Source of the DNA: a virus
DNA: 46,582 bases
Direction: 5' to 3' (one strand)
Virus record (IMG/VR): IMGVR_UViG_3300027970_000045
Coordinates: 1-46,582 of that record
Shown here: positions 1,241 to 40,184 of the stretch, piece by piece
Position numbering within the stretch: the stretch's first letter is position 1
Layout of the letters: every line of letters begins with the position of its first letter
Position numbers and translations under genes: made by a program
The notes under the pieces: generated by a model
Told to the model about the DNA's origin: nothing
Seen by the model: the letters and a program-made list of their open reading frames with translations, nothing else
Database searches by the model: none

Positions 1241-2863
1241 TTATACTAGAGAACCAAGTTCTGAAGCCAAGTTAACACCTGAAGTCAAATACATAGTTTC
1301 TGGATGGAAACCTGCTTCAACTAAAGCGTAACGAGATTTAACAGCAACCTTAGGAGCCATAGTTCCTTCAGCGATTGTTTGTACTGATTCAGCCATTAAG
1401 TAAGGCATGAATACAAGACCTGGAGAGTTACCATCACCTTTACGGCCTACACAGAAACGAGTATCGTTCCAAGCACGGTTTGGATCGTTGTAGATCGCAA
1501 GACCTGCAAGTGTTCCAATTGGGTAAAGTGAACCTGCCATTTGGTTAATTGTATTAGCCATTGGTGCAGGGATAAATCCAGCAACATCTTGTAATGCTGA
1601 ACATACTTGTCCGTTAGTTACTACGAAAGTAGCTGGACCACGACGACCTCTAATAGCGATTAAGTTCGCAATAGCAAGGATCTTAGACATGATCTTTCTT
1701 TGACGTGTATGTAAGTTCTCTGAAGCAGAGTTAGCAACCTCAGTCTGATTAACTGTTTGATTTCTCAAAGAAGTTGATTGGATGTAAGCACCGAAGTTAG
1801 TTCCAGAAGCACATCCTGTACCAGCGATGATTGCAGTTTGACCTAAGTTCAAGAAGAAGTTAAGACCTTGAGTACGTACAACGAATTCATGGTTTCTTTC
1901 TCCTAAGAAGAATAAACGATCTAGGATATTTTTGTTGATTGATTGAGTCAATTCGTTGATAAGTACTGATTCTACTTGAGATACAGCATCTACTCCGAAT
2001 TGTTTCAAATCTTGAACTTGCTCACGAGTAACAGCAGCAGCAACTTGGAAAGTCTTAGCTTCAACTGATTTGTTGAATAGACTTAAGTTCATTACATTGT
2101 CTGTTGTACCTTCACCGTCGGCTCTTGAGTAAGGATCGTTAATATCGAATCCTGTGTAATCATTGTCTTTCAACGCTGTTCCAGAGAATCCAGTAATATG
2201 ATCTTCTAAAGCTTTAACTAATTCAATAGTTAAACCAGTAGTAGCACCAGTTACACCACTAATACCTGTTACACCAATTGCAGTAGTTGCAACAGTAAGT
2301 AAAGTACCACTTGTTAAAGTTCCTCTTACATGGAAGATTGGATAACCATCAATACGAGAAGCTCCAACATAACCTAAAGTAATACCGCTAATAGCAACTG
2401 AAGTACCACCAGCAACGAATGCAGGAATAGCAGTTGAACCATAGTTAACTTTAATTAATAAAGGAAGATTATCACCTGTACCAGAAGTTTTACCACCAGC
2501 ATATACGAAATCCAAGTATGTAAGAACACCCATTGGACCAGGCATAGGAACTACAGGAACTAAATCTAGACCTACAGTTTGAGCAGCAACTTGCATAGCA
2601 AGAGGAAGAAGTGTGTGAGCTTTATCACCAGAACCTGCTTGTCCAGTGTAAAAATCAGTTTGTGTTCCAGGATCACCAGGGAAACGGGTTGAACCCATAC
2701 CATTAACAGCACCTAGAACTGCAGTTGAATTACTTTCGTAAAGTTCATGATAGTGGCAGTATTTAGACATCCACTCAATACGACTACGATCAGTAATACC
2801 AACTTCGGACTCCAAAATTGGAGACCATTTAGAGAAAATCTCTTGTTCGTTTAACAAATACAT
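1241..2863 (-). CDS. 23: Major capsid protein, T4 gp23-like
   Basis: This 540-residue protein has the length and layout of T4 gp23, the HK97-fold subunit that builds the head hexamers. The N-terminus (NEQEIFSKWSPILES) matches the gp23 propeptide pattern. The predicted maturation cut is after L41-Y42-E43, fitting the L-x-E rule of the gp21 protease encoded nearby. The mature arm then starts SNSTAVLGAVNGMGS. The body includes motifs typical of the family, such as RRGPATFVV near residue 410 and the C-terminal FHPETMYL region. Gene order portal, protease, small ORF, capsid is as in T4-like head clusters. Two promoter-like elements lie upstream and a strong terminator lies downstream. Confidence 0.95.
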   Translation of the reverse strand: MYLLNEQEIFSKWSPILESEVGITDRSRIEWMSKYCHYHELYESNSTAVLGAVNGMGSTRFPGDPGTQTDFYTGQAGSGDKAHTLLPLAMQVAAQTVGLDLVPVVPMPGPMGVLTYLDFVYAGGKTSGTGDNLPLLIKVNYGSTAIPAFVAGGTSVAISGITLGYVGASRIDGYPIFHVRGTLTSGTLLTVATTAIGVTGISGVTGATTGLTIELVKALEDHITGFSGTALKDNDYTGFDINDPYSRADGEGTTDNVMNLSLFNKSVEAKTFQVAAAVTREQVQDLKQFGVDAVSQVESVLINELTQSINKNILDRLFFLGERNHEFVVRTQGLNFFLNLGQTAIIAGTGCASGTNFGAYIQSTSLRNQTVNQTEVANSASENLHTRQRKIMSKILAIANLIAIRGRRGPATFVVTNGQVCSALQDVAGFIPAPMANTINQMAGSLYPIGTLAGLAIYNDPNRAWNDTRFCVGRKGDGNSPGLVFMPYLMAESVQTIAEGTMAPKVAVKSRYALVEAGFHPETMYLTSGVNLASELGSLV

Positions 2864-2950: not shown

Positions 2951-3358
2951 TTAGAAATTAGAATTTACGGTGAATTGATATGCTATAAATCCTTCGTCAG
3001 AAGTTCGTGTAACATTAAGTACAGAATCATATTCTGCATCGAACATATCATTATCGAAGATTTCTGTTTGCTTAAATTTCCTTTCTAAAAAATCATAAAT
3101 TGTACCACCCAATTTTGTCTCTTCCTCTGAATTTTCATCTGATTGCATAACTTGAGAGATATCGCCATCGGCGATACCTAATTTTTTAGCAAATTGTTCA
3201 GCAGCTGCTTGCATTTCTGAATCACCTTTAGTTCCCCATGCATTTGATAAAACACTTGTTGATACAATTTTTCTATCAGAAAAAGCCTTTTTAGACATAT
3301 TTCCTTCTGTTATTAAAGATTCATTTAAGAATTCACTGAATGATAGTAATGTTTTCAT
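2951..3358 (-). CDS. Small head protein with capsid-targeting N-terminus (135 aa)
   Basis: The N-terminus MKTLLSFSEFLNES fits the targeting peptide shared by many proteins here, with a predicted cut after L-N-E (residue 13). A second possible site, L-I-T-E, follows four residues later. The rest is acidic and not recognised; it has a short helical region (EMQAAAEQFAKKLG) and a beta-rich C-terminus. It lies between the protease-scaffold gene and gp23 with a 5-bp gap to the former, so it belongs to the head-assembly unit. I infer a prohead-core or internal head component; no function can be named. Confidence 0.8.
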   Translation of the reverse strand: MKTLLSFSEFLNESLITEGNMSKKAFSDRKIVSTSVLSNAWGTKGDSEMQAAAEQFAKKLGIADGDISQVMQSDENSEEETKLGGTIYDFLERKFKQTEIFDNDMFDAEYDSVLNVTRTSDEGFIAYQFTVNSNF

Positions 3359-3363
3359 ATATT

Positions 3364-5268
3364 TTATTTTTTGAATCTTTGACGGAATCCAGCTTTTACA
3401 GCATCCAAATAAGTATCTGGAGTTTTGTATTCAGAAGTCTCATTGAGTGGAGCATTTAAGTTTTCGTTTTCGTTAATCAAATCTACTTTAACTTCTCTTA
3501 AATCTCTAGTTGCCCAGAAATTATCAATTTGATATTGAGATTCAAGTAATCTTGTAGAAGCTTGAGCTTTAATAGCGTTCTTTTGAGATTCAGTTAAAGT
3601 ATTCCAAGAAGCTAAGTATCTATTTGGCATTTGAAGTAACCAATCTGCTCTTTTTGTAGGTTGTGTAAAACAGGATTCCCAAATCTTATTAGCATCAGCG
3701 GTTCCATAATATCTATTAGTTTGAAAAGCATTAACTATTTTTTCTTGAGTTTCAGAATTAAGAGAATCAAATTCTCTTCTTTTTGTTTCACCTAAGAATT
3801 GAAAGAAATGATATTTTTTATCAACTTCCGATTCCTTTTCAGTTTTAGCTGATTCAAGAATAGCATTCAATTGATTTGTAATATCTGATTTGAAATCATC
3901 ATTGTTATCAACTTCTAAAGACTCGGAAATTTGTACAATTTCTTTTGCTTTTTCTGTGATGATATCAGTTGATTTTTTGATGTCTTCGAATGAAGCACCT
4001 TCATTGATTTGTTCAACTACATAACCTAAGTAGTTTGATAGGTTTTCGGTATTTTCTTTTAAGTATTCAGAGTATTTAACAACGGAATCAACTCCTTCAA
4101 CGATATAATCATTATGAGAAATAACTTTATCTAGTTGTTCGTTGATGTGTGTTTGATATCCCCAACGATTAGAAGTTTCTTCTGAAAGGTAATTAGAGAA
4201 ATCAATTAAAGACGAAGTTTTTTCACCAAGATATTGTGTATAATTGATGCTTTCGTTTGTTTTCTCAGCAACCATTTTAGTATACTCAATTAGGTGATCC
4301 ATTGATTCAGCAAGTTGTTCTGAGTAATTGATTCCTACATTAGTTTTTTCTCCAACTAATTCGGCGTAGTTTTTAACTTTCTCGAGATTTTCAATGATAT
4401 AATCATTATGAGAAACTAATCCATCAACATTTTCGGTAATTCTACCAATATGTTCTTGAATACTATTTACTTTTTTAGCAATTGATTCCGCATATTTAAC
4501 GAGTCCTTCATTTAAAGATTTGTCATCTTTATTTGATGAAGCTTCCTGAACAGATGTTTTAAGATTTTCAAATTCATTCTTAATTATCTTCGTATACTCA
4601 TTAAAGTCCTCAACGGAAATGTATTTTTTTGCATCCATTTCGTTTATTTTTTTATTTTCGGGTTCTATGTTATTTTCTTTGTTTTCTGCAATTTTATTAG
4701 ATGCAAAAGTCCAAAAATCAGGAACTTCAAAAAGTCCTATATTATCATCTTCAGCATCAAAACCATAACTTTCATTTACTCTTTTTAATTCGGCATTTGA
4801 AAATCCTGGATTTGCAACTAAGTCATAAGTAAACATTTTTTTTATTTTTACGTGACCGTTGCTTTCAACAACACCAGCAGCTCTACTAGAAATATGAAGA
4901 GGAACTCCTGCATCAACAAGGGCTCTAGCATTTTTTCCAGCATCTGTATTTAATAAACGAATACGACCTGTAACTTTTTTAGTAGAAGGATCATAATCAA
5001 TAGATTCAATTACGTGAGATGCATTTTTAAGAGAAATATCAAAAGATTTTGGATGATCTAATTCACCTAAAAGTTTGTTATTTTCACATTGTTTTTTAAG
5101 CTCATTAACGTGAGGGAGAATCTCCTTTTCGTCATATATTCTATTATTGTTGTTCTTAACGCCAATTTCAGTAAATGTTCCCTCTAAGACGTATTTGTCT
5201 TCTCCTTCGGAGATAAGGTTCAATTTATTTTCCGATCGTTCAACAATCAGAAGAGTCTTATTGCTCAT
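3364..5268 (-). CDS. 21: Prohead protease fused to scaffold core (gp21-gp22-like fusion)
   Basis: The first ~180 residues match the T4 prohead protease gp21: LGELDHP holds the catalytic His72, and HISSRAAG (125-132) holds the catalytic Ser (127 or 128). The remaining ~450 residues are a long acidic helical region with a repeat of about 20 residues (pattern NY-x-x-YLxExT, roughly 285-420), then a mixed domain ending DTYLDAVKAGFRQRF, which resembles the gp22 scaffold C-terminus. L/I-x-E sites are dense in the repeat, as in T4 gp22, which gp21 degrades. Met211 follows an A-rich tract typical of starts here and follows I-N-E, so scaffold alone might also be made. T4 gp21 is about 212 residues; this protein is 634. 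Confidence 0.9.
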   Translation of the reverse strand: MSNKTLLIVERSENKLNLISEGEDKYVLEGTFTEIGVKNNNNRIYDEKEILPHVNELKKQCENNKLLGELDHPKSFDISLKNASHVIESIDYDPSTKKVTGRIRLLNTDAGKNARALVDAGVPLHISSRAAGVVESNGHVKIKKMFTYDLVANPGFSNAELKRVNESYGFDAEDDNIGLFEVPDFWTFASNKIAENKENNIEPENKKINEMDAKKYISVEDFNEYTKIIKNEFENLKTSVQEASSNKDDKSLNEGLVKYAESIAKKVNSIQEHIGRITENVDGLVSHNDYIIENLEKVKNYAELVGEKTNVGINYSEQLAESMDHLIEYTKMVAEKTNESINYTQYLGEKTSSLIDFSNYLSEETSNRWGYQTHINEQLDKVISHNDYIVEGVDSVVKYSEYLKENTENLSNYLGYVVEQINEGASFEDIKKSTDIITEKAKEIVQISESLEVDNNDDFKSDITNQLNAILESAKTEKESEVDKKYHFFQFLGETKRREFDSLNSETQEKIVNAFQTNRYYGTADANKIWESCFTQPTKRADWLLQMPNRYLASWNTLTESQKNAIKAQASTRLLESQYQIDNFWATRDLREVKVDLINENENLNAPLNETSEYKTPDTYLDAVKAGFRQRFKK

Positions 5269-5329: not shown

Positions 5330-6940
5330 TTAAGCTATAGCTTCTGCTGATTTCTTAGATGCAGCTAATTTATCTTCATCTTCAATTGTTTTCATTTTCT
5401 TATTTGTTCGTAGATCTTCTGCGGATAATCCTAAGAATCTTTGAATTAAGAATTCGGATGCAAAGTATTTAATTTCATTCATATTAGCATCCATTTCAAC
5501 AAGACCATCTTTCATTGCTGTAACAAAATCAAGACGTTTTTGAAGGATTTCTATTTCTTTCATCTCTTCAAAAATGTTATATTTATGGAATTTTATACCG
5601 ATTTGTGCTTTAAATGCATCATCATCTTTTAATTCTGGAAAGTCAAGACACATCTGAATCCAAAGAGGTTTAACAAGAATTTCTTGAAATACGGATCTAA
5701 TACGAGTAACAAAACGACCAAATTTAATTTCGTCTCTTGTCATACCTTCAGCATTCATCTCCCAAGAAGGCGGTGATTCCATATCAAAACGAGAAAGAGG
5801 AATTTTAGATACTTTAATTAGTTTTTCACGAAAGTATTTAAGAGCTTCTGTATCAGAAAGATCAGGTCCGTCATTACCAATAGTTTCAATTGTTGGTTCT
5901 CCAGCTTCACCAGATGGTAACCAATACTCTTTATTAAATGGCATCATTGCTTTACCATTAACTTTTAGCTCTCCTGATTCTGTATCAAAATCGATATTTT
6001 CTCGGTAGTTTTGCATCAAAACACCTAGAGATTGACGAGCTCTTGTTTTAGATTTACCACCAACAGGAATAACGAATTTTGTTTTGAATGAAGCATTTAC
6101 AGTAGCCCAAATTACTCGGGAATGTTCCATAATTCTTAGTAAGTTAAATGATCTTACTAAACGTTCTACATAAGAAACACGATTTGCTGTGTTAACATTT
6201 GCATATGATATGTATATGACTTGTGAATCATATAGCTTTCTTTCTTTTTGTACTTGACCTTTGAATTGAGTCCAAATTTTCTTTCCTTCTTTATCAAGTC
6301 CTGGAGTTAAATTGATTGGATCTATTTCTTTGAAACCAATAATTCTAGTTTGTTCCTTATTGTAAATAATTTCAAAAGAGACAAATCCATCAACTAACCA
6401 TTTTCTAAAATATGACCAAGCAGCGATATCATTATTGAATCCAAAGTATTGATAAATTCTTTTGAAGTTAGTTTCTAATGCGATTCTAACAGCTTCAATA
6501 GTTCCAGGTTCTAATGTTTCGTCATCAAAAGCTACAGGAATACAAAAGTAATTTTTATCATCATATACAATAGCTTCATCACAAATAGTATCTAGAATTT
6601 CTTCGATTTCATCTTGTACAGCGAATTTACGAAGATCTTCTCTCTTTTTTGGATATGATTTATCGAATATAGAAATTGATTTTCTTAAATTAATATCTGT
6701 CATTGAAAGATTAGCAAATAAAGCATAATCATCATATTCTCCACCGGTAGCATTCCGTGGATCCATTTTCCAACCATACAAATCTTCATTAACACCAATA
6801 GATTTAGAGTTACGAAGAACCATATCGTCATACATCATCCCGAAAGATGATAGAGATTTTAAAGCTTTAGAAACGATATTTCTTGCTGAGGCACTTTGTC
6901 TCTGTGCATAAACATCATCTCTATTTACAAAACCTGACAT
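5330..6940 (-). CDS. 20: Portal vertex protein, T4 gp20-like
   Basis: The 536-residue length and sequence fit T4 gp20, which forms the dodecameric portal used for head initiation, DNA packaging and tail joining. Family features include EEILDTICDEAIV near residue 112, the RSFNLLRIMEHSRVIWA stem region, and the EYWLPSGEAGEPTIETIG segment followed by LIKVSKIPLSRFDME, typical of gp20 crown and clip regions. It lies upstream of the protease-scaffold gene, as in T4 (20, 21, 22, 23). An AATATATA element lies 20 bp before the start, and the leader is A-rich without a Shine-Dalgarno sequence. Confidence 0.95.
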   Translation of the reverse strand: MSGFVNRDDVYAQRQSASARNIVSKALKSLSSFGMMYDDMVLRNSKSIGVNEDLYGWKMDPRNATGGEYDDYALFANLSMTDINLRKSISIFDKSYPKKREDLRKFAVQDEIEEILDTICDEAIVYDDKNYFCIPVAFDDETLEPGTIEAVRIALETNFKRIYQYFGFNNDIAAWSYFRKWLVDGFVSFEIIYNKEQTRIIGFKEIDPINLTPGLDKEGKKIWTQFKGQVQKERKLYDSQVIYISYANVNTANRVSYVERLVRSFNLLRIMEHSRVIWATVNASFKTKFVIPVGGKSKTRARQSLGVLMQNYRENIDFDTESGELKVNGKAMMPFNKEYWLPSGEAGEPTIETIGNDGPDLSDTEALKYFREKLIKVSKIPLSRFDMESPPSWEMNAEGMTRDEIKFGRFVTRIRSVFQEILVKPLWIQMCLDFPELKDDDAFKAQIGIKFHKYNIFEEMKEIEILQKRLDFVTAMKDGLVEMDANMNEIKYFASEFLIQRFLGLSAEDLRTNKKMKTIEDEDKLAASKKSAEAIA

Positions 6941-8242: not shown

Positions 8243-8557
8243 TTATGCTGCTACTTGAGAAATTCCACCAGCTGCAATAATTTTAGTGATTGCATCATCG
8301 GAAAAAGACATAGGCTCAGCATTATGATCAGCTTCATTAAAGATATGGTAACCATCAGTATATCCTGAATATATCATATCTGTGTTAGTTTTACCATCTA
8401 AAGTAATAGTAAATTCTTTACCTGGAAGTAAATCATCAATAGATTTAACAGCTGGTAAAGTTGGGTCAGTATCCTTTTGTTTTGCTGGATCATAACCATT
8501 TGCATCGTTAGCAGCTTCGTTTACGAATTGCTCGAATGTAGGAATGTAATTCTTCAT
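8243..8557 (-). CDS. Internal head protein candidate with targeting peptide and SH3-like module (104 aa)
   Basis: The N-terminus MKNYIPTFEQFVNEA fits the targeting peptide with a predicted cut after V-N-E. The mature remainder is about 90 residues. Its C-terminal half (LLPGKEFTITLDG ... SGYTDGYHIFNEA) matches the C-terminus of the 535-residue protein at 11589-13196, so both share a small beta-rich module that may dock them to a common partner. A GATAAATA element lies 21 bp before the start. Family and function are unknown. Confidence 0.8.
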   Translation of the reverse strand: MKNYIPTFEQFVNEAANDANGYDPAKQKDTDPTLPAVKSIDDLLPGKEFTITLDGKTNTDMIYSGYTDGYHIFNEADHNAEPMSFSDDAITKIIAAGGISQVAA

Positions 8558-8591: not shown

Positions 8592-9419
8592 TTATTGAAA
8601 GAATGTAGATCCACCAGATGAAGCATCTGTAGTATCTCTACCTCCACCAACCATATAATTGGAATCTGAAGAAGTTGCAGTATAAGTTCCTGTTCCAACA
8701 GTTCTACTTGGATCTGAAACTACATCTTCTTCAACTTTGTTTCCTTGATCGTCAGTAAGAGGTTTATCTCTTAATATCTTATTTATTTCTACAAAGAAAG
8801 GAATTTCTTCAGGTGTTAATTTCGATTTAACATATTTCGAAATTTCTCTCATCAACCTATTTCTTTCTTTATTAGTTGCATCAGCTTTAGCTTTCTCTCT
8901 TTTACCCTTAACATAAAGAGTATCTTGGTAAGGATATTTTTCCAGTTCTTGCATCATACTAGTAAGATCACTATCACCATTAAATTTATTAGCGATTCCA
9001 TGAGCTTGATCTTTTAGCTCAGCGAATTTTTTATCTTGTTTAATCTTTTCTATTTTATTAGCTATTGAATTTCTCCAATTAGAAAAAAGAACACCGGCAA
9101 GTAAAACTCCACCTCCTGCAAAAGCTAATCCTACTTTAATTAAATCAGCAGCAATAATACCTTTTGTTACCTCCCACCAAGTCATATCTGCTTCATTTAA
9201 GATTTCATCCGAAGTAAGTTCATATGATTCTACAATTCTTACAACACCTTTATGATCTCTATATTGAACCTTTCCATTAACTGATTCTTTAGAAACGATG
9301 ATACCAGAGTAACCATCGAAAGATTTAACTGAGTTTCCTACTTTAAGTTCTTGTCCATCAAATGAATATGACGGCCAATTCTCAAATAGATATTGTTCGT
9401 AAGTTTGTAAGTTTTTCAT
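8592..9419 (-). CDS. Targeting-peptide protein with membrane segment (275 aa)
   Basis: I chose the ATG at 9419 because it gives the targeting peptide MKNLQTYEQYLFEN and lies 1 bp after the upstream stop; the 35 upstream in-frame residues are the other frame of the neighbouring Lys/Glu-rich tail. A predicted cut follows L-F-E. Residues 20-65 look like a small beta barrel (VGNSVKSFDGYSGIIVS). A second site, L74-N75-E76, precedes ADMTWWEV. A hydrophobic segment follows (88-112), then a charged helical domain and a Gly/Ser/Thr-rich tail. A membrane-active internal protein released with the DNA is possible, but this is speculation. Confidence 0.8.
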   Translation of the reverse strand: MKNLQTYEQYLFENWPSYSFDGQELKVGNSVKSFDGYSGIIVSKESVNGKVQYRDHKGVVRIVESYELTSDEILNEADMTWWEVTKGIIAADLIKVGLAFAGGGVLLAGVLFSNWRNSIANKIEKIKQDKKFAELKDQAHGIANKFNGDSDLTSMMQELEKYPYQDTLYVKGKREKAKADATNKERNRLMREISKYVKSKLTPEEIPFFVEINKILRDKPLTDDQGNKVEEDVVSDPSRTVGTGTYTATSSDSNYMVGGGRDTTDASSGGSTFFQ

Positions 9420-9420
9420 T

Positions 9421-10161
9421 TTATTCTTCTTTAGCTTCCGCTTCTTTTTTTTCAGGTTTTTCTTCTCCACCTTTTGCTGGTAGAGCTTCTTTCTTAGCAT
9501 CCGGATCAACACCAGCAAGATCATCTTTAATCTTCTCGGCCTTATCCTTAACTTCTTCCATGTCTTTTGAACTCATTTCATCATCTAAAGAGAAATCATC
9601 AGGTGTTGAATTAGTGAATATGATATTTCTAGCATAATCAAAAACCATAAGAACCTTATCGTCTTTATCTTTTACTTCATAAGTTTTAGCAAAAGCATCT
9701 TTTTCAATTTTAAGACCTTCTTTTTTCTCATTCTGATCTCTCCAAGCTGACCACCAAGTCGGTGTCATTGAATATCTTCTATGTAGAGCTGATGTGTCGT
9801 GAGCTTCATCCACTAATTCTGTAATAACAGATTCATTTCTAACTATCGATTCACTTTTAAGGAAATCAAAAACGTGAGATAAATTTTCTTTAGCAACTGT
9901 TACATGATCATTTGCCCAATCATGTCCATTGTTTAACATACTATCTATTTTTTCTTGATTCATTTCGAGAATCATTTTAGATAGATCTTGAATCCTTTTT
10001 AAGTTAGAGAAGAACATATAATTAGAAGGTTTTTCTTCGTCATCATCTTCTTTAACTGCTGTAGGATTATAAGTGAATCCACCAGGGTTATCGACTGAAG
10101 TAATTCCCATTTGAGCATTACCATTTTCAAATAACCAATCTTTGTAATTTTTTAATTTCAT
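9421..10161 (-). CDS. Targeting-peptide head protein with acidic-basic tail (246 aa)
   Basis: The N-terminus MKLKNYKDWLFENGNAQMG fits the targeting peptide with a cut after L-F-E. The following stretch (MGITSVDNPGGFTYNP) loosely echoes the mature gp23 arm. The middle (about 45-120) is helical; 140-200 is Trp-rich then beta-rich (TPTWWSAWRDQ, KVLMVFDYARNIIF). The tail is a Lys/Glu low-complexity segment. It is followed after 1 bp by the next targeting-peptide gene, suggesting translational coupling. No family is recognised. Confidence 0.8.
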   Translation of the reverse strand: MKLKNYKDWLFENGNAQMGITSVDNPGGFTYNPTAVKEDDDEEKPSNYMFFSNLKRIQDLSKMILEMNQEKIDSMLNNGHDWANDHVTVAKENLSHVFDFLKSESIVRNESVITELVDEAHDTSALHRRYSMTPTWWSAWRDQNEKKEGLKIEKDAFAKTYEVKDKDDKVLMVFDYARNIIFTNSTPDDFSLDDEMSSKDMEEVKDKAEKIKDDLAGVDPDAKKEALPAKGGEEKPEKKEAEAKEE

Positions 10162-10569: not shown

Positions 10570-11544
10570 TTAAAGTTTAACGGTAATGTATTTTTTAAGA
10601 ATCTCTGCTTTATTACCATCAGGTAGAATACAAGTTATCTTTTCGTCGTCACCTCTTCGAGTATAATCTAATGCATCTAATTTAATTACATCTCCAATTT
10701 TTAATGTATCGAAAGGTGTATTAAGAGTTCCTGTTACAAATTTCCCAGCATCTCCATCTTCATTCATACTTTCATTCCAAGATTTTACGTATTCAAGATC
10801 TTTAAGAGGCAGTTCAGTAGTTGAACCGTCCCAATTATGAATCTCGACATTAGATCCTTTGATTGATAGTATCTTACCACCTGTAAAATCCTTATCTTTT
10901 TTGTACCTAACAAAAGTACCAACTTCTATTTTTTCAGCTTCGTTAACTTCGACTGATTCATTAGTTGCTAGAACTTTAGCAAATGATTTTGCATCAGTTA
11001 CTTCTTCACCAAAAAGTTCGATTGTTTCGTCATCTAAATTGATGTAAATTTCCGATCCGTGATGTTTCATATCAAGGATAATTGTGCTATAATTTTTACC
11101 AATAGCAGTTCCATTAGAAATATATTTTCCAGCCTTTTCTGCCCATCCAGCAGCTTTCTTAACAAGAGCTGTAGCATAAGGTCCTTTACGTTTAGCAAAT
11201 TCCATAACATTAGAAGGAACTCTAGCAGCTTCATTAACAGATTCTTGAATTTGTTTAACCGAAGTTACCTTTTTACCTTGTTGTTCAGGATCCGTGTCGG
11301 ATGAATAATAAAGTAGATTATTATCTATAAGACGTTGGTAAATTTCATCTTTAACATCGTCCCAATTGATTCCTTCGAAATCATCGGCTTGATTAAAAGT
11401 ATCATAAACATAAGAAGGATCGATCCAACCATATCCAGTTTTAACATTTCTAATTAAAGACGAAACTCCCATTTCGAATTGTTTTACTGCTCCTTCATTA
11501 ATAGATTCATTAACAAATTCACTAAAATTAAGTAGTTTTTTCAT
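10570..11544 (-). CDS. Multi-site targeting-peptide head protein (324 aa)
   Basis: The N-terminus MKKLLNFSEFVNESINEG carries two adjacent cleavage-type sites (VNE, INE). Further sites occur at ESVNEAA (about residue 105) and VEVNEAE (about 200), and MNEDG occurs near 260; together they separate discrete segments. The last two segments look like small SH3-type barrels (VGTFVRYKKDKDF and IGDVIKLDALDY). I infer a precursor cut into several internal peptides or domains by gp21, in the manner of T4 core proteins. A terminator ends 8 bp before its start, so expression needs read-through. Confidence 0.8.
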   Translation of the reverse strand: MKKLLNFSEFVNESINEGAVKQFEMGVSSLIRNVKTGYGWIDPSYVYDTFNQADDFEGINWDDVKDEIYQRLIDNNLLYYSSDTDPEQQGKKVTSVKQIQESVNEAARVPSNVMEFAKRKGPYATALVKKAAGWAEKAGKYISNGTAIGKNYSTIILDMKHHGSEIYINLDDETIELFGEEVTDAKSFAKVLATNESVEVNEAEKIEVGTFVRYKKDKDFTGGKILSIKGSNVEIHNWDGSTTELPLKDLEYVKSWNESMNEDGDAGKFVTGTLNTPFDTLKIGDVIKLDALDYTRRGDDEKITCILPDGNKAEILKKYITVKL

Positions 11545-13219: not shown

Positions 13220-14014
13220 TTACTTAGCAGCACCAAATCCGGTTAGACTTGGATATCTTTTAAGAACTGCTTTAATGATCAGTTCTTTTTTGTTAGCATA
13301 TTGAGGCCATGTAGCCCAAACTAATGCTGTTTTTGCATGTGATTCATCGTGAATCGGCCATGCTCTATCTTCAGGGAAAACGAAATCTTTCGGTTTTAAT
13401 TTATCTCTTTGTGCTTGAGATAATTTCTCGTTAACAGAATGATATTCAAAGATTCCACTTATAAATTCTGTACTTTCTTCAGAAAGATCAAATTCGAAAG
13501 TTTCTGAAAGAATTTTCTTAATTTTGTCTAGCTTCTCAGCATCTTTTAATGCAGATTGAAGAGCAGCTATTTTAGAAGATTCTTGATCATCTTTATCTTT
13601 AGAATCACCCTCCTCTTCTTTGTCTTTCATTGAATCTTCATCACCTTTTTTCAATTTATCAAGTGCTTTATCGATTTCTGGATCCACTTTTGCTTTAGCA
13701 GGATCAATACCTTTAGCTAAATCAGAAGTATCAGCTTTAACTAGTTTCTCTATCTCGTTATCTTCATCGTCTTCGTAAATACCGGCCTCTAACAAATCAA
13801 AATCAATTTGTTCATTAAGGAAGATTTTAGCGATCACTGTTCGCTTTCTTTCTTCATCAACACCTAATGTTGTTAGATATGTGTATATCTGTTGTGCTGA
13901 TTTTCCTTCAGATGCCAATTTACTAACGATTGGGAAAAGAGATCCTTGTCCATAATAAGAGTATTGTCCTATGAGATTCTCATTAACAAACTCATCGTAA
14001 GATTTTATTGCCAT
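13220..14014 (-). CDS. Targeting-peptide head protein with DUF6582-like C-terminus (264 aa)
   Basis: The N-terminus MAIKSYDEFVNENLIGQ fits the targeting peptide with a cut after V-N-E. A helical domain (30-75) follows, then a highly charged Asp/Glu/Lys linker (about 80-150), a helix, and a C-terminal block KPKDFVFPEDRAWPIHDES, followed by HAKTALVWATW and KAVLKRYPSL. The block P-x-x-R-x-(W/Y)-P-I-x-D-x-x-H-A resembles the DUF6582 domain seen in other phage head or core proteins; this is from memory. The layout suggests a scaffold-associated or internal protein. A GATATATA element lies 19 bp before the ATG. Confidence 0.8.
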   Translation of the reverse strand: MAIKSYDEFVNENLIGQYSYYGQGSLFPIVSKLASEGKSAQQIYTYLTTLGVDEERKRTVIAKIFLNEQIDFDLLEAGIYEDDEDNEIEKLVKADTSDLAKGIDPAKAKVDPEIDKALDKLKKGDEDSMKDKEEEGDSKDKDDQESSKIAALQSALKDAEKLDKIKKILSETFEFDLSEESTEFISGIFEYHSVNEKLSQAQRDKLKPKDFVFPEDRAWPIHDESHAKTALVWATWPQYANKKELIIKAVLKRYPSLTGFGAAK

Positions 14015-28727: not shown

Positions 28728-28753
28728 TCGGCCGGCAAACCTTATACGGCCGA
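28728..28753 (-). repeat. GC-rich inverted repeat across a stop codon
   Basis: TCGGCCG and CGGCCGA form a perfect 7-bp stem with a 12-bp loop. The stem is very GC-rich in an AT-rich genome and spans the TAA of the gp23-arm-like gene. There is no T-run, so it is not a standard terminator; it may be an RNA-stability element or a scar. Confidence 0.55.
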
Positions 28754-28990
28754 TCTTAGTTCTTCACTACCTTTGATAAAATCTTTGAATCTTACGAAGG
28801 AGGATTTCTTCATTTTCTTTGGTTGTCCTTTAGACAACGTATAAGGAATATCACCAGATCCTGTTTCTTGAGTGACATAGTCATTCTGAGTTCCTGGATT
28901 TCCTGGCATTGAAGGGGAACCCATTCCACCAACTGAACTAACAGTTGCTGCTGCAGAATTTTCTTTTAGAAAATCTTCGTATGTAGACAT
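28742..28990 (-). CDS. Head protein copying the gp23 N-terminal arm (82 aa)
   Basis: From the ATG at 28990 the protein starts MSTYEDFLKENSAAAT, a targeting peptide with a cut after L-K-E (residue 10). An alternative ATG at 29014 adds eight residues. Residues 18-52 align without gaps to gp23 residues 51-85, with 19 of 35 identical, including GMGS, PGTQ, GSGD and TL. In both proteins this segment starts 7 residues after the predicted gp21 cut. The C-terminal third is basic with a second targeting-like stretch (FVRFKDFIKGSE). I infer a packaged head protein that mimics or competes with the gp23 arm. Confidence 0.8.
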   Translation of the reverse strand: MSTYEDFLKENSAAATVSSVGGMGSPSMPGNPGTQNDYVTQETGSGDIPYTLSKGQPKKMKKSSFVRFKDFIKGSEELRSAV

Positions 28991-29018
28991 GGGTGTATGT
29001 TTTCTTTTTGGCATCTTA

Positions 29019-29348
29019 TTAGATGTAATTCTGAGATACCATTGCGTCGATAACTCTTCCGTTAATGGATTTGTATTTTTTAAGATATTGTTTTGCTACA
29101 CCTCTAAGTTCTTCGCATTGTTTAGATTGACCGAACGGAGAACGTGTATTCGGATGTTCAGATTCAGTATCCCACCACATTACTACTTCGTCATAAAGTG
29201 CATCTAGCTCTTTTTCGTTTTTAGCTACTTTTTTACCATAATCTTCTTCGCCAACTGGAGTTCCTTTTTCATATTGTTTCCAATAAGCTACATCGCCTGC
29301 TTCGTTAAGTGATTCATTTAAGAATTCTTTGAATGATTTAATTTTCAT
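29019..29348 (-). CDS. Targeting-peptide head protein (109 aa)
   Basis: The N-terminus MKIKSFKEFLNESLNEAG has two tandem cleavage-type sites (LNE, LNE). The mature part is charged with a Trp-containing helix (LYDEVVMWWDTESEH) and a basic C-terminal helix (GVAKQYLKKYKSING). The family is unknown. It lies in a run of three such genes transcribed together, with gaps of 4-10 bp. Confidence 0.8.
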   Translation of the reverse strand: MKIKSFKEFLNESLNEAGDVAYWKQYEKGTPVGEEDYGKKVAKNEKELDALYDEVVMWWDTESEHPNTRSPFGQSKQCEELRGVAKQYLKKYKSINGRVIDAMVSQNYI

Positions 29349-33497: not shown

Positions 33498-33944
33498 CTA
33501 AAAGTTTTTGTGATGGAATTCTTCTATAGAAATTCTATTTCTAATAGCAAATCCCATTTTATCCACCGTTTCGATACATTGATTAAAAAATAAAATCTGA
33601 TTATCTAGAAGCTCTGTTTGTCGAGTTCTCATAGACATATCCGAATCGATGAATTGGTTTATTTCACGATAATCCAATCGGACATCATGTTGAGTTTTAT
33701 AGTATTCGAATCTTAGTTTTCTAAAATTCTGATCGTTTGTTTTCTTTTTATAAACGGCTGATCGATATTTAGCTGCCTTTTCAACAAACATATGTCGATA
33801 AGAAAGCATAAATACTTGAGCTTCTGGTATTTGATCTATCTTATTTATTTTTGAAATAAGTTCAGAAAGCTTATGACCATATTCTACACGTTCCTTTTCG
33901 AGGGCTTCGTCTATATCGTTTACTTTTCTTTCTTCTTCGGTCAT
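33498..33944 (-). CDS. uvsY: Recombination mediator UvsY
   Basis: In T4, UvsY loads UvsX onto gp32-coated single-stranded DNA. This 148-residue helical, charged protein has the family pattern: EAQVFMLSYRHMFVEKAAKY, KLRFEYYKTQHD, LLDNQILFFNQCIETVD, then a C-terminal KMGFAIRNRISIEEF, equivalent to T4 UvsY's SRGFAIKHIQDM. It lies directly upstream of uvsW, as uvsY and uvsW are close neighbours in T4. The gap is 2 bp. Confidence 0.8.
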   Translation of the reverse strand: MTEEERKVNDIDEALEKERVEYGHKLSELISKINKIDQIPEAQVFMLSYRHMFVEKAAKYRSAVYKKKTNDQNFRKLRFEYYKTQHDVRLDYREINQFIDSDMSMRTRQTELLDNQILFFNQCIETVDKMGFAIRNRISIEEFHHKNF

Positions 33945-37336: not shown

Positions 37337-37675
37337 CTAACTTATTTTTTCATATTTATAATCACCTTTACGTATTAGAGACCAAAATCTCGTTCCAAAA
37401 GTTCCTTCCTCTACGGCATCCTTTCCAAAAAGTTTTCTAGCTCCTTTCGCTATACCACCTCCAATTTTTTGAAGGAGGTTCTTTTCTAAAGAAAGTTCTC
37501 TCCAAACGGATTTAGGAACTTCACTATATTTATATTTTGATCCGTCGTGAAATTCTATTTCTAAAACTTCAGTATCTGAATCATATTCCATAGAAACCAA
37601 ATGTGAAGATTTAACTTCTTTCTCCCATTTTTTTTCGGTAATTAGATACTCATCGTATGTAGGTAGATTTTTCAT
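37337..37675 (-). CDS. Targeting-peptide protein with KTSC domain (112 aa)
   Basis: The N-terminus MKNLPTYDEYLITEKKW fits the targeting peptide with an I-T-E site. The rest resembles the KTSC domain: SSHLVSMEYDSDTEVLEIEF, HDGSKYKYSEVPKSVWREL, and a C-terminal GTRFWSLIRKGDYKYE. Between them is an inserted segment of about 30 residues (LLQKIGGGIAKGARKLFG). KTSC domains occur at the end of some lysyl-tRNA synthetases and as small stand-alone proteins of unknown role. Here the domain appears to be addressed to the phage head. The ATG overlaps the previous stop. Confidence 0.82.
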   Translation of the reverse strand: MKNLPTYDEYLITEKKWEKEVKSSHLVSMEYDSDTEVLEIEFHDGSKYKYSEVPKSVWRELSLEKNLLQKIGGGIAKGARKLFGKDAVEEGTFGTRFWSLIRKGDYKYEKIS

Positions 37676-38229
37676 CGAAGTATGCCGTAAATTCTCTTGG
37701 TTATTCTTTTATTGGCCTTGGATAGTAATCTCGTGTAATACCCATCTTTCTGCATTTCTGGTTTTTTATCAGCTCCAACTATATCTTTAATGGCCTTTTC
37801 ATCGGTTACTACTGGAGCTTTTGAGGATGATAAAAGTTCTTCCATTCTTAATGAAGCCTCAATGTACCAACCTCGAGTATTAACCAATTCTAGAATCTTC
37901 TTTACCATATCCCTTTTAGCTTCTTTTATTCCATTGGTACCTAGCAAAGCAATTTTGTTACCGTAAGGAGTTTCTTTGTAAATGATAAATGCATCTGGTA
38001 ATTTATCTCGATCAACATCTTTTAGAAAAGTGGCTTTATATTTAGAACGAATTTCACGATAATCAGATGCAGAAAAATCCATGCCTGCTTGAGAATAGGT
38101 ATCAGAATACATCTTCCATATTAATTCCATTCCCTCATCGTCTACTTTATTCAAATCGAAATCTACCCATTTCATAGATGGCATTTTGAATTCTAATAAG
38201 AATTCGTCATATTTTAAGAATTGATTCAT
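37672..38229 (-). CDS. Targeting-peptide protein (185 aa), unknown mature domain
   Basis: The N-terminus MNQFLKYDEFLLEFKM fits the targeting peptide with a cut after L-L-E. The mature ~170 residues form an alpha/beta domain (GMELIWKMYSDTYSQAGMDF, DAFIIYKETPYGNKIALLG, then helix AKRDMVKKILELVNTRGWY), loosely reminiscent of small acyltransferase-type folds, and a basic tail (YYTRLLSKANKRITKRIYG). I cannot name the family. Overlaps on both sides show tight coupling to the KTSC and HNH genes. Confidence 0.78.
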   Translation of the reverse strand: MNQFLKYDEFLLEFKMPSMKWVDFDLNKVDDEGMELIWKMYSDTYSQAGMDFSASDYREIRSKYKATFLKDVDRDKLPDAFIIYKETPYGNKIALLGTNGIKEAKRDMVKKILELVNTRGWYIEASLRMEELLSSSKAPVVTDEKAIKDIVGADKKPEMQKDGYYTRLLSKANKRITKRIYGILR

Positions 38230-38733: not shown

Positions 38734-39072
38734 TTATTTTTTTCCAGTTGTTCTATTCTTTTCAATCCAGGCTTTAAATACCTTAATAGCATCTCGCATT
38801 TCTGGTGTTTGATGTTGATGTTTTTCAGCTCTATTCAACATGGTTGTAGCAACTGACATTGCCCACATATGTTCTCCTTTTTTCTCTAGTCCATCTAACT
38901 GTTTACAAGTAGATTCGGCTTTTGCAGCATTTGCATATCCAGTTCCTTTTAGAGCATACTTACCTCCTCCTGTATAAAGTCCATCTTCTTTAGGATCACC
39001 TGGAGCTCTCTTATGTCCTTGTCCTTTATCCCCTTCGTTGATAAATTCGTCAAAATCCATTATGTTTTTCAT
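38734..39072 (-). CDS. Targeting-peptide protein (112 aa)
   Basis: The ATG at 39072 (rather than the TTG two codons earlier) gives MKNIMDFDEFINEGDKGQ, a targeting peptide with an I-N-E site. The mature part begins with a basic Gly-rich stretch (HKRAPGDPKEDGLYTGGG) and continues as a helical domain (ANAAKAESTCKQLDGLEKK, then HMWAMSVATTMLNRAEKHQ and FKAWIEKN). A GATAAATA element lies 20 bp before the start. The family is unknown; internal head localisation is inferred. Confidence 0.8.
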   Translation of the reverse strand: MKNIMDFDEFINEGDKGQGHKRAPGDPKEDGLYTGGGKYALKGTGYANAAKAESTCKQLDGLEKKGEHMWAMSVATTMLNRAEKHQHQTPEMRDAIKVFKAWIEKNRTTGKK

Positions 39073-39818: not shown

Positions 39819-40184
39819 TTAGAATCTTTTGCCGATTGCAGCACCTAAAGCAGCACCAACAAGTCGACTAGTTAATAAGTCAAAAACAACTCCTCTTTCT
39901 ATTCCTAGAACATTTGCAATAATTTTACCAACAGAAGATCCGAGAGCAAATCCAGTAAGTCCTCCAATAACGGAACCTAAGAAACCTTCGTTTGTTAGTT
40001 CTTCATTAAATTCTTTAAGTCCTTTACTTTTTTCTAAGTATTCTTCACAGAATTTTTTTACTGCTTCATCTACTTTTTTTTCTTCATCTTCGGTCAGCTC
40101 AGACTTCAGATTTTCATTCATCATCCATATCTCAATGTCTGAGAATGTTCCTGATTCGATTAAGTATTCTTTAAATGTTTTCAT
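39819..40184 (-). CDS. Targeting-peptide protein with glycine-zipper segment (121 aa)
   Basis: The N-terminus MKTFKEYLIESGTF is nearly the T4 internal-protein peptide (MKTYQEFIAE), with a cut after L-I-E. An acidic helical part (15-65) is followed by two hydrophobic Gly-rich segments (FLGSVIGGLTGFALGSSVG and RLVGAALGAAIGKRF) that resemble glycine zippers and could insert into membranes. I infer a packaged protein, perhaps helping DNA cross the host envelope. It is separated from the tail-tube-like gene by 12 bp. Confidence 0.82.
   Translation of the reverse strand: MKTFKEYLIESGTFSDIEIWMMNENLKSELTEDEEKKVDEAVKKFCEEYLEKSKGLKEFNEELTNEGFLGSVIGGLTGFALGSSVGKIIANVLGIERGVVFDLLTSRLVGAALGAAIGKRF

Follow-up and report, generated by a model that had tools for sequence, protein, structure and literature searches.

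A virus record of 46.6 kb (IMGVR_UViG_3300027970_000045; here "the window", that is, the whole stretch of 46,582 nucleotides analysed) carries a prohead protease of the T4 gp21 type and a scaffold-like chain in one open reading frame, with a phased array of candidate cleavage sites in the scaffold part and a conserved methionine in a start-like context between the two parts. The gene is probably a nested, self-digesting core gene of the T4 superfamily that would supply both a protease-scaffold fusion and a scaffold alone, in the manner of HSV UL26/UL26.5, lambda C/Nu3 and Mu I/Z. The entire analysis is computational, and the start positions of the ORFs in the relatives' loci are predicted.

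The locus

T4-type head genes are clustered at one end of the window, all on the minus strand: a DNA end protector, a gp4-like head closure gene, the portal gene, the fusion gene, a gene for a 135-aa protein and the major capsid gene. T4-type replication genes (UvsX, SbcCD, a DnaB-like helicase, DNA polymerase and ribonucleotide reductase) are also present. The fusion gene runs without interruption for 634 aa at exactly the coordinates given in an earlier note on this DNA, and it is read from the minus strand (5268..3364). The features discussed below are collected in Table 1.

Table 1. Features of the fusion gene and of the window (a slash marks a predicted cut).
Feature	Position	Strand	Basis
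Fused prohead protease-scaffold gene, 634 aa, 72.7 kDa	3364..5268	-	
Peptidase S77 (T4 gp21-type) domain, residues 1-166	4771..5268	-	Pfam PF03420, Foldseek, invariant residues
H72 codon	5053-5055	-	invariant in relatives
S127 codon	4888-4890	-	invariant in relatives
VNE166/S, near-invariant candidate release site ending the protease domain	4771..4779	-	relatives' alignment
Hypervariable linker, residues 167-210, φ-x-E at 181, 195, 210	4639..4770	-	pLDDT <50 at 176-218
Predicted internal translation initiation region around Met211 (ATG 4636-4638)	4624..4668	-	conservation, context, synonymous A excess
First, isolated 14-residue unit, residues 223-236	4561..4602	-	array profile
Twelve tandem 14-residue units, unbroken register, residues 257-424	3997..4500	-	profile; AF2 helix 251-422
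Conserved C-terminal helical domain, about residues 480-600	3469..3831	-	model; relatives
24-residue basic C-terminal tail after LNE610/T, candidate capsid-binding	3367..3438	-	putative
Portal protein (gp20-like), directly upstream of the fusion gene	5330..6940	-	Pfam Portal_T4 E 1e-71
135-aa protein, N-terminal capsid-targeting-like sequence MKTLLSFSEFLNE/S	2951..3358	-	motif
Major capsid protein (gp23-like), candidate cleavage site LYE43/S	1241..2863	-	Pfam Gp23 E 3e-36
Capsid-targeting ORFs, part 1	2951-3358, 8243-8557, 8592-9419, 9421-10161, 10570-11544, 13220-14014	-	N-terminal motif
Capsid-targeting ORFs, part 2	28742-29014, 29019-29348, 33498-33809, 37672-38229, 38734-39072, 39819-40184	-	N-terminal motif

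The window probably belongs to a large phage of the T4 superfamily with a Bacteroidota host. The host is suggested by genes of these loci (window and relatives) that start without a Shine-Dalgarno sequence in an A-rich context, and by the nearest named relatives, which are Prevotella Lak and Tenacibaculum phages; related large freshwater phages have been assigned to Bacteroidota (PMC9723584). Ribosomal protein S21, known from related Bacteroidota phages (PMC9723584), was not found in the window. An S21 gene does lie between the protease and capsid genes of Microcystis phage Mel-JY01 (4655-4882 of its locus), as it does in the Bacteroidota bS21 phages (PMC9723584).

Protease and scaffold are fused in many large phages

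A scan of 2.9 million viral contigs yielded 72 loci on independent contigs. Every locus with both gene ends has a single ORF of 577-815 aa, so that the proposal of protease and scaffold in one chain holds well beyond the window; the major capsid gene comes next wherever the contig reaches it, and the fusion gene lies between the portal and capsid genes wherever a relative's locus has both. The same fusion is present in huge phages of 462, 636 and 735 kb and in Lak phages (code 15), as well as in Tenacibaculum phages PTm1 and pT24, Rhizobium phage RHph_TM40 and the 110-kb phages Ab1-TPeters and IME392. An assembly or sequencing error that joined two ORFs, the caveat attached to the earlier note, is thus refuted by the recurrence of the fusion in every complete contig and in the genomes of cultured and curated phages. 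In T4 and in thirteen other T4-type phages examined, the protease is a separate protein of ~210 aa; the separation of genes 21 and 22 that had been pointed out for T4 extends, therefore, to most other T4-type phages examined.

When the fused or split state was placed on the protease tree, the label changed at least twice on well-supported branches and three times in all, with exact placements made unsure by long branches. A single origin of the fusion (one fused clade) was rejected by the AU test (p about 4e-51), with the same caveat of long branches.

The N-terminal part is a Peptidase S77

Residues 26-137 match Peptidase_S77 (PF03420) with an E value of 6e-11 and 42.6 bits, compared with the curated Pfam cut-off of 27, and the assignment agrees across Pfam, PHROG and fold. 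When the predicted fold was searched with Foldseek, the sole significant PDB matches were three T4 gp21 chains (5jbl, E 1.6e-10, TM 0.78 by target). The gp21-type catalytic residues recognised from the sequence at the outset, His72 and Ser127/Ser128, are all invariant in relatives, and H72 and S127 correspond to H85 and S140 counting along the T4 gp21 sequence. With a profile score above the cut-off and a gp21 fold that keeps the His and the Ser, the domain is a member of Peptidase S77, and an N-terminal protease and a C-terminal scaffold share one frame. The protease domain ends in φ-N-E166/S (φ, hydrophobic) in all 40 relatives, the residue after the Glu being occasionally A, N, G or Q.

A conserved methionine and probable internal start at the junction

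Residues 169-232 are hypervariable, and within them Met211 stands out as the one nearly invariant column. A Met is found at or near this column in 40/40 genes; where the column differs, a Met lies one to several positions away. Met211 had been proposed as the start of a separate scaffold product following I-N-E. That tripeptide is present in the window protein but is not conserved in relatives, whereas the Met is. Hence, Met211 is not kept as a P1' residue.

Met211 was scored for its context with a matrix built from 158 start codons, all taken from other genes of these loci. Real starts had a median score of 7.9, Met211 scored 3.1, and other internal ATGs scored -9.4. The Met211 context falls in the 98th percentile of internal ATGs, and it ranks top among the internal ATGs of its own gene in 21 of the 29 genes scored. 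Synonymous sites were also considered: A is used above the gene's own codon usage solely at codons about -10 to +3 around Met211. The excess amounts to 0.16 A per codon at -8 to -1, and none is seen at -32 to -16 or at other internal Mets (paired test over 38 genes, p 3e-9, the relatives not being independent). The linker is rich in Lys and Asn and hence A-rich for protein reasons, a confounder that the synonymous test reduces and does not remove.

Shine-Dalgarno sequences mark the same point in phages with proteobacterial hosts. In the independently fused TM40, Ab1-TPeters and IME392, the junction ATG is preceded at starting distance by GGAG, GAGG and AGGAG, respectively. Their remaining internal Met codons in that frame lack such a sequence, apart from one with a weak AAGG match. 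Vibrio phage 1.031.O, a sister in which the genes are split, begins its scaffold gene at the equivalent position behind AGGAG and reads it in frame with the protease gene; T4 genes 21 and 22 are likewise in one frame. Since a split sister has its scaffold start at the same place, the simplest history is that the stop codon of the protease gene was lost and the scaffold start was kept.

An internal promoter for the scaffold was also sought. Promoter-like sites were fewer than in shuffles, and the T4-type TATAAATA occurred at chance level in the window and was absent from the fusion gene. This negative result favours internal translation over internal transcription.

One may argue that Met211 is incidental and that the fused protein is the only product, with protease and scaffold in a 1:1 ratio. 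Phage P2 gpO acts as a single protease-scaffold chain, and the fusions of the Tenacibaculum phages PTm1 and pT24 have no junction Met, which indicates that one can be dispensed with; besides, the context of Met211 scores below that of real starts. We nevertheless consider this explanation unlikely in view of a Met maintained throughout the relatives within a hypervariable linker, a focal synonymous bias, and Shine-Dalgarno sequences at the junction ATG of three phages that became fused independently. Altogether, conservation, initiation context, synonymous-site bias and the independent Shine-Dalgarno cases strongly support Met211 as a predicted in-frame internal start with an initiation signal of its own. 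The product, residues 211-634, would have a mass of 49.1 kDa, slightly above the ~48 kDa estimated in the earlier note.

A 14-residue array of candidate cut sites

The region behind the protease had been described as helical, with repeats of ~20 residues. The helix is reproduced by the AF2 model, which predicts with low confidence one continuous helix at residues 251-422, but the actual period of the repeat is 14. The unit reads I-x-Y-[TS]-E-Y-[ILV]-A-E-N-x-[DN]-K-x, with φ-x-E at positions 7-9. The observation that a cut motif recurs about once per repeat is confirmed: φ-x-E is present in 11 of the 13 units of the window protein. The abundance of such tripeptides is also borne out, with 19 in residues 215-484 compared with 8.8 expected by shuffling (z 4.1), and φ-x-E pairs at lag 14 number 10, compared with 0.3 in shuffles. 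A profile that ignores unit positions 7-9 detected 412 units in 41 proteins and 7.6 in shuffled sequences, bearing in mind that it was seeded partly from the window and that shuffles and profile tests ignore relatedness. Position 7 of these units is hydrophobic in 97% (background 21%) and position 9 is Glu in 79% (background 12%).

Richness in φ-x-E as such is more widespread. Scaffolds encoded apart from the protease in split phages show it (z 1.6-6.6), as do fused relatives without a regular array and the protease domain itself (10 tripeptides, 4.2 expected by shuffling). Because the protease domain and the split-phage scaffolds are also enriched, raw enrichment is weak evidence; it is the constant phase of 14 residues that exceeds chance. 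The earlier description of a scaffold studded with the protease's own cut sites is therefore true of this protein and, in part, of ordinary gp22 too: a self-destructing scaffold is the T4 norm, and the phased array is what is new.

A different reading is that the array is an ordinary coiled coil in which φ-x-E recurs from heptad spacing and not for cutting. Its appeal is that the array is predicted as one continuous helix, that 14 is twice 7, that coiled-coil designs appear among weak profile matches, and that the motif is enriched in the protease domain as well. However, the period of the motif is 14 and not 7. Units with φ-x-E at positions 7-9 amount to 78%, and only 17% have it at the half-register 14-2; as heptads would favour the half-register equally, heptad constraint alone is insufficient. 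Furthermore, a coiled-coil core does not call for a Glu at position 9, and the motif also occurs at the predicted cut sites of the capsid protein and of internal proteins. A coiled coil pure and simple thus seems improbable, and cutting remains the preferred explanation for the phased motif. Complete in-silico digestion of residues 211-634 after φ-x-E gives 27 peptides with a median length of 14, the largest of 4.4 kDa.

The array varies among relatives. The most regular of all, with almost perfect IKYAEYIAEHVDNN repeats, belongs to a 735-kb phage (L080, LR756501). A branch of relatives with longer proteins of 791-815 aa (L066, L067, L068, L070, L071 and L073) retains only a few units of a degraded array, and some lose the Glu (IAKNLN). 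In Lak phages (L079, Lak-B2), the middle region is a long acidic, apparently disordered stretch without array. A regular 14-residue array was not found in PTm1, pT24 or TM40.

Candidate cut sites in capsid and internal proteins

T4 gp21 cleaves after L/I-x-E (PMC9026906). In the relatives of the window phage, a predicted capsid-protein site, L-x-E/[NSAD], has its Glu at residue 43 in 39 of 39, just ahead of a conserved GMG region. Among neighbouring ORFs in relatives, 67 of 375 start with a T4-like capsid-targeting sequence (e.g., MKNLLSFDEFVNE), compared with 2.7 expected from shuffled N-termini. The capsid protein, the protease end and the N-termini of predicted internal proteins thus give indirect support to φ-x-E as the cut site in these phages. 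The P1' residues are N, K, S and Q in the array and S, A and N at capsid and targeting sites, a modest difference which implies that not every array unit may be cut.

Additional observations were made in the window. The N-terminus of the capsid protein (1241-2863, minus strand) has three conserved φ-x-E sites (E6, E18 and E43), suggesting stepwise removal of a propeptide. Capsid-targeting sequences of the T4 kind ([FYW]xx[FYWM]φ-x-E near the N-terminus) stand at the beginning of twelve ORFs, which predicts unusually many internal head proteins. In one of them (8592-9419, minus strand), the motif implies a start downstream of that of the longest ORF. Another (28742-29014, minus strand) encodes a 90-aa protein with the targeting sequence MSTYEDFLKE/N; the residues behind it nearly match the capsid segment downstream of the predicted cut (GGMGSPSMPGNPGTQNDY...GSGD), as if the protein were a small mimic of the capsid N-arm.

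The C-terminal domain

Behind the array, the model of the C-terminal domain (mean pLDDT 78) shows two similar three-helix modules, although sequence evidence for an internal duplication is weak. The domain is common to PTm1, pT24 and Lak phages (hhalign E 1e-5 to 2e-10). No solved structural relatives were found, and matches in a viral structure library were solely other phage protease-scaffold proteins plus one uncharacterised virus protein. The gp22-like C-terminus seen in the earlier note did not withstand comparison: the C-terminal 160 residues match gp22 families with an hhalign probability below 1%.

In near relatives, LNE610/T and the 24-residue basic tail are conserved; overall, the distance of the last site from the end is the same as in shuffles. 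The idea that scaffolds generally carry a cut site near the C-terminus was rejected for the latter reason. The basic tail may bind capsid or portal.

The lack of sequence similarity to gp22, together with the many other ORFs that have capsid-targeting-like N-termini, might indicate that the C-terminal part is retained in the virion as an internal head protein, the real scaffold being encoded elsewhere. This seems very unlikely. The position between portal and capsid genes is that of gp22 in split phages, and in the group of TM40 and Vibrio phage 1.031 a gene of its own, located where gp22 would be, encodes the C-terminal part; in addition, cut sites throughout the chain favour removal over retention. 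We propose that the scaffold part would work like gp22, on account of its location between protease and major capsid genes, its predicted helix and its richness in motifs, without filing it as a member of the gp22 family.

The array resembles a capsid-targeting sequence

The heptapeptide of the capsid-targeting sequence (CTS), aromatic-x-E-aromatic-φ-x-E, has the same layout as array positions 3-9. Among array units, 76% have aromatic residues (Y/F/W/H) at both P7 and P4; among the remaining φ-x-E sites of these fused proteins, 3% do. The first φ-x-E site within 24 residues of the N-terminus of neighbouring ORFs, taken without selection, has them in 42% of cases, and shuffled N-termini have them in 2%. 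By sequence, therefore, array units conform to the CTS pattern, with aromatics at P7 and P4, φ at P3 and Glu at P1. T4 IPII and IPIII both begin with MKTYQEFIAE and are then cut before A. Genetic analysis in T4 has linked targeting to CTS residues 4 and 7, and processing to residues 8 and 10 (PMC9026906), which amounts to P7/P4 and P3/P1. The T4 CTS is, however, a single N-terminal copy on cargo proteins, while the window phage has a tandem array inside the scaffold.

A tentative possibility, somewhat less likely to be right than wrong, is that the scaffold array consists of capsid-targeting motifs repeated in tandem. Cargo might then enter the prohead by means of one copy of the scaffold repeat that packs into the helix lattice of the core, and the cut that destroys the scaffold would free the cargo. 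Simple amphipathic-helix patterning could account for part of the likeness. If the idea is correct, scaffold building, cargo recruitment and disassembly would share one 14-residue module, and the division in T4 between targeting residues (4, 7) and cleavage residues (8, 10) would have a structural reason. The array opens to experiment the old question of why a short peptide at the N-terminus is enough to direct cargo into a head of the T4 type. A sequence rule also follows: [FY]-x-[ED]-[FY]-φ-x-E near the N-terminus would predict proteins packaged in, and perhaps injected from, the heads of large phages.

A proposed model for a nested gene

We propose that translation of the full ORF would produce protease, flexible linker and scaffold in a chain of 72.7 kDa, and that initiation at Met211 would produce the scaffold alone, presumably in excess. 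If HSV UL26/UL26.5 is taken as a guide, most of the scaffold would consist of the short form, and the long form would serve to deliver the protease to the core. Both products would have the helical array and the C-terminal domain and might thus co-assemble in the prohead core, the fused copies bringing the protease. Once activated, the protease would cleave after φ-x-E, freeing itself at VNE166/S and in the linker. It would also mature the capsid protein at LYE43/S and trim targeting peptides off internal proteins. Cuts in the array about every 14 residues would yield peptides small enough to exit.

Comparison with known systems

In lambda C/Nu3, the scaffold start lies in frame within the protease gene. 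The proteases of Mu I/Z and lambda C/Nu3 belong to families other than S77, and we know of no 14-residue φ-x-E array in either system. In phage Mu I/Z, too, the scaffold starts internally and in frame with the protease gene (PMC4378225), as is predicted for the window gene.

HSV-1 UL26/UL26.5 offers a broader likeness: an N-terminal protease joined to a scaffold in 635 residues, a nested in-frame scaffold product and a release site behind the protease, both of them predicted for the window gene, and a capsid of the HK97 lineage (PMC12474303). The long form makes up about 10% of the HSV scaffold (PMC12474303). In HSV-1, however, the short product comes from a gene of its own, UL26.5, and there are two specific sites instead of an array, with a different cleavage specificity.

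T4 gp21 and gp22 share with the window protein the protease fold and residues, the order portal-21-22-23, the φ-x-E specificity (L/I-x-E in T4, PMC9026906; predicted for the window protein) and a motif-rich scaffold. They differ in that the genes are separate, the 14-residue array is missing, and gp22 is unrelated to the C-terminal domain of the window protein at the sensitivity of hhalign. A literature search, mostly without subscription journals, found no description of a gp21-gp22 fusion or of a nested start in T4-type phages. The protease of SPN3US has been proposed to reach the prohead by means of a propeptide at its C-terminus (PMC7411985); by comparison, the targeting extension of the window protease would be the whole scaffold.

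An S77 protease-scaffold in a single ORF is shared with Tenacibaculum phages PTm1 and pT24, Prevotella Lak phages and Rhizobium phage RHph_TM40. The nested protease-scaffold gene, so far a feature of herpesviruses, lambda and Mu, would thus probably extend to the T4 superfamily. It would also be found in some of the largest phages known, including one with a 735-kb genome, in a superfamily where the switch between split and fused genes has occurred at least twice.
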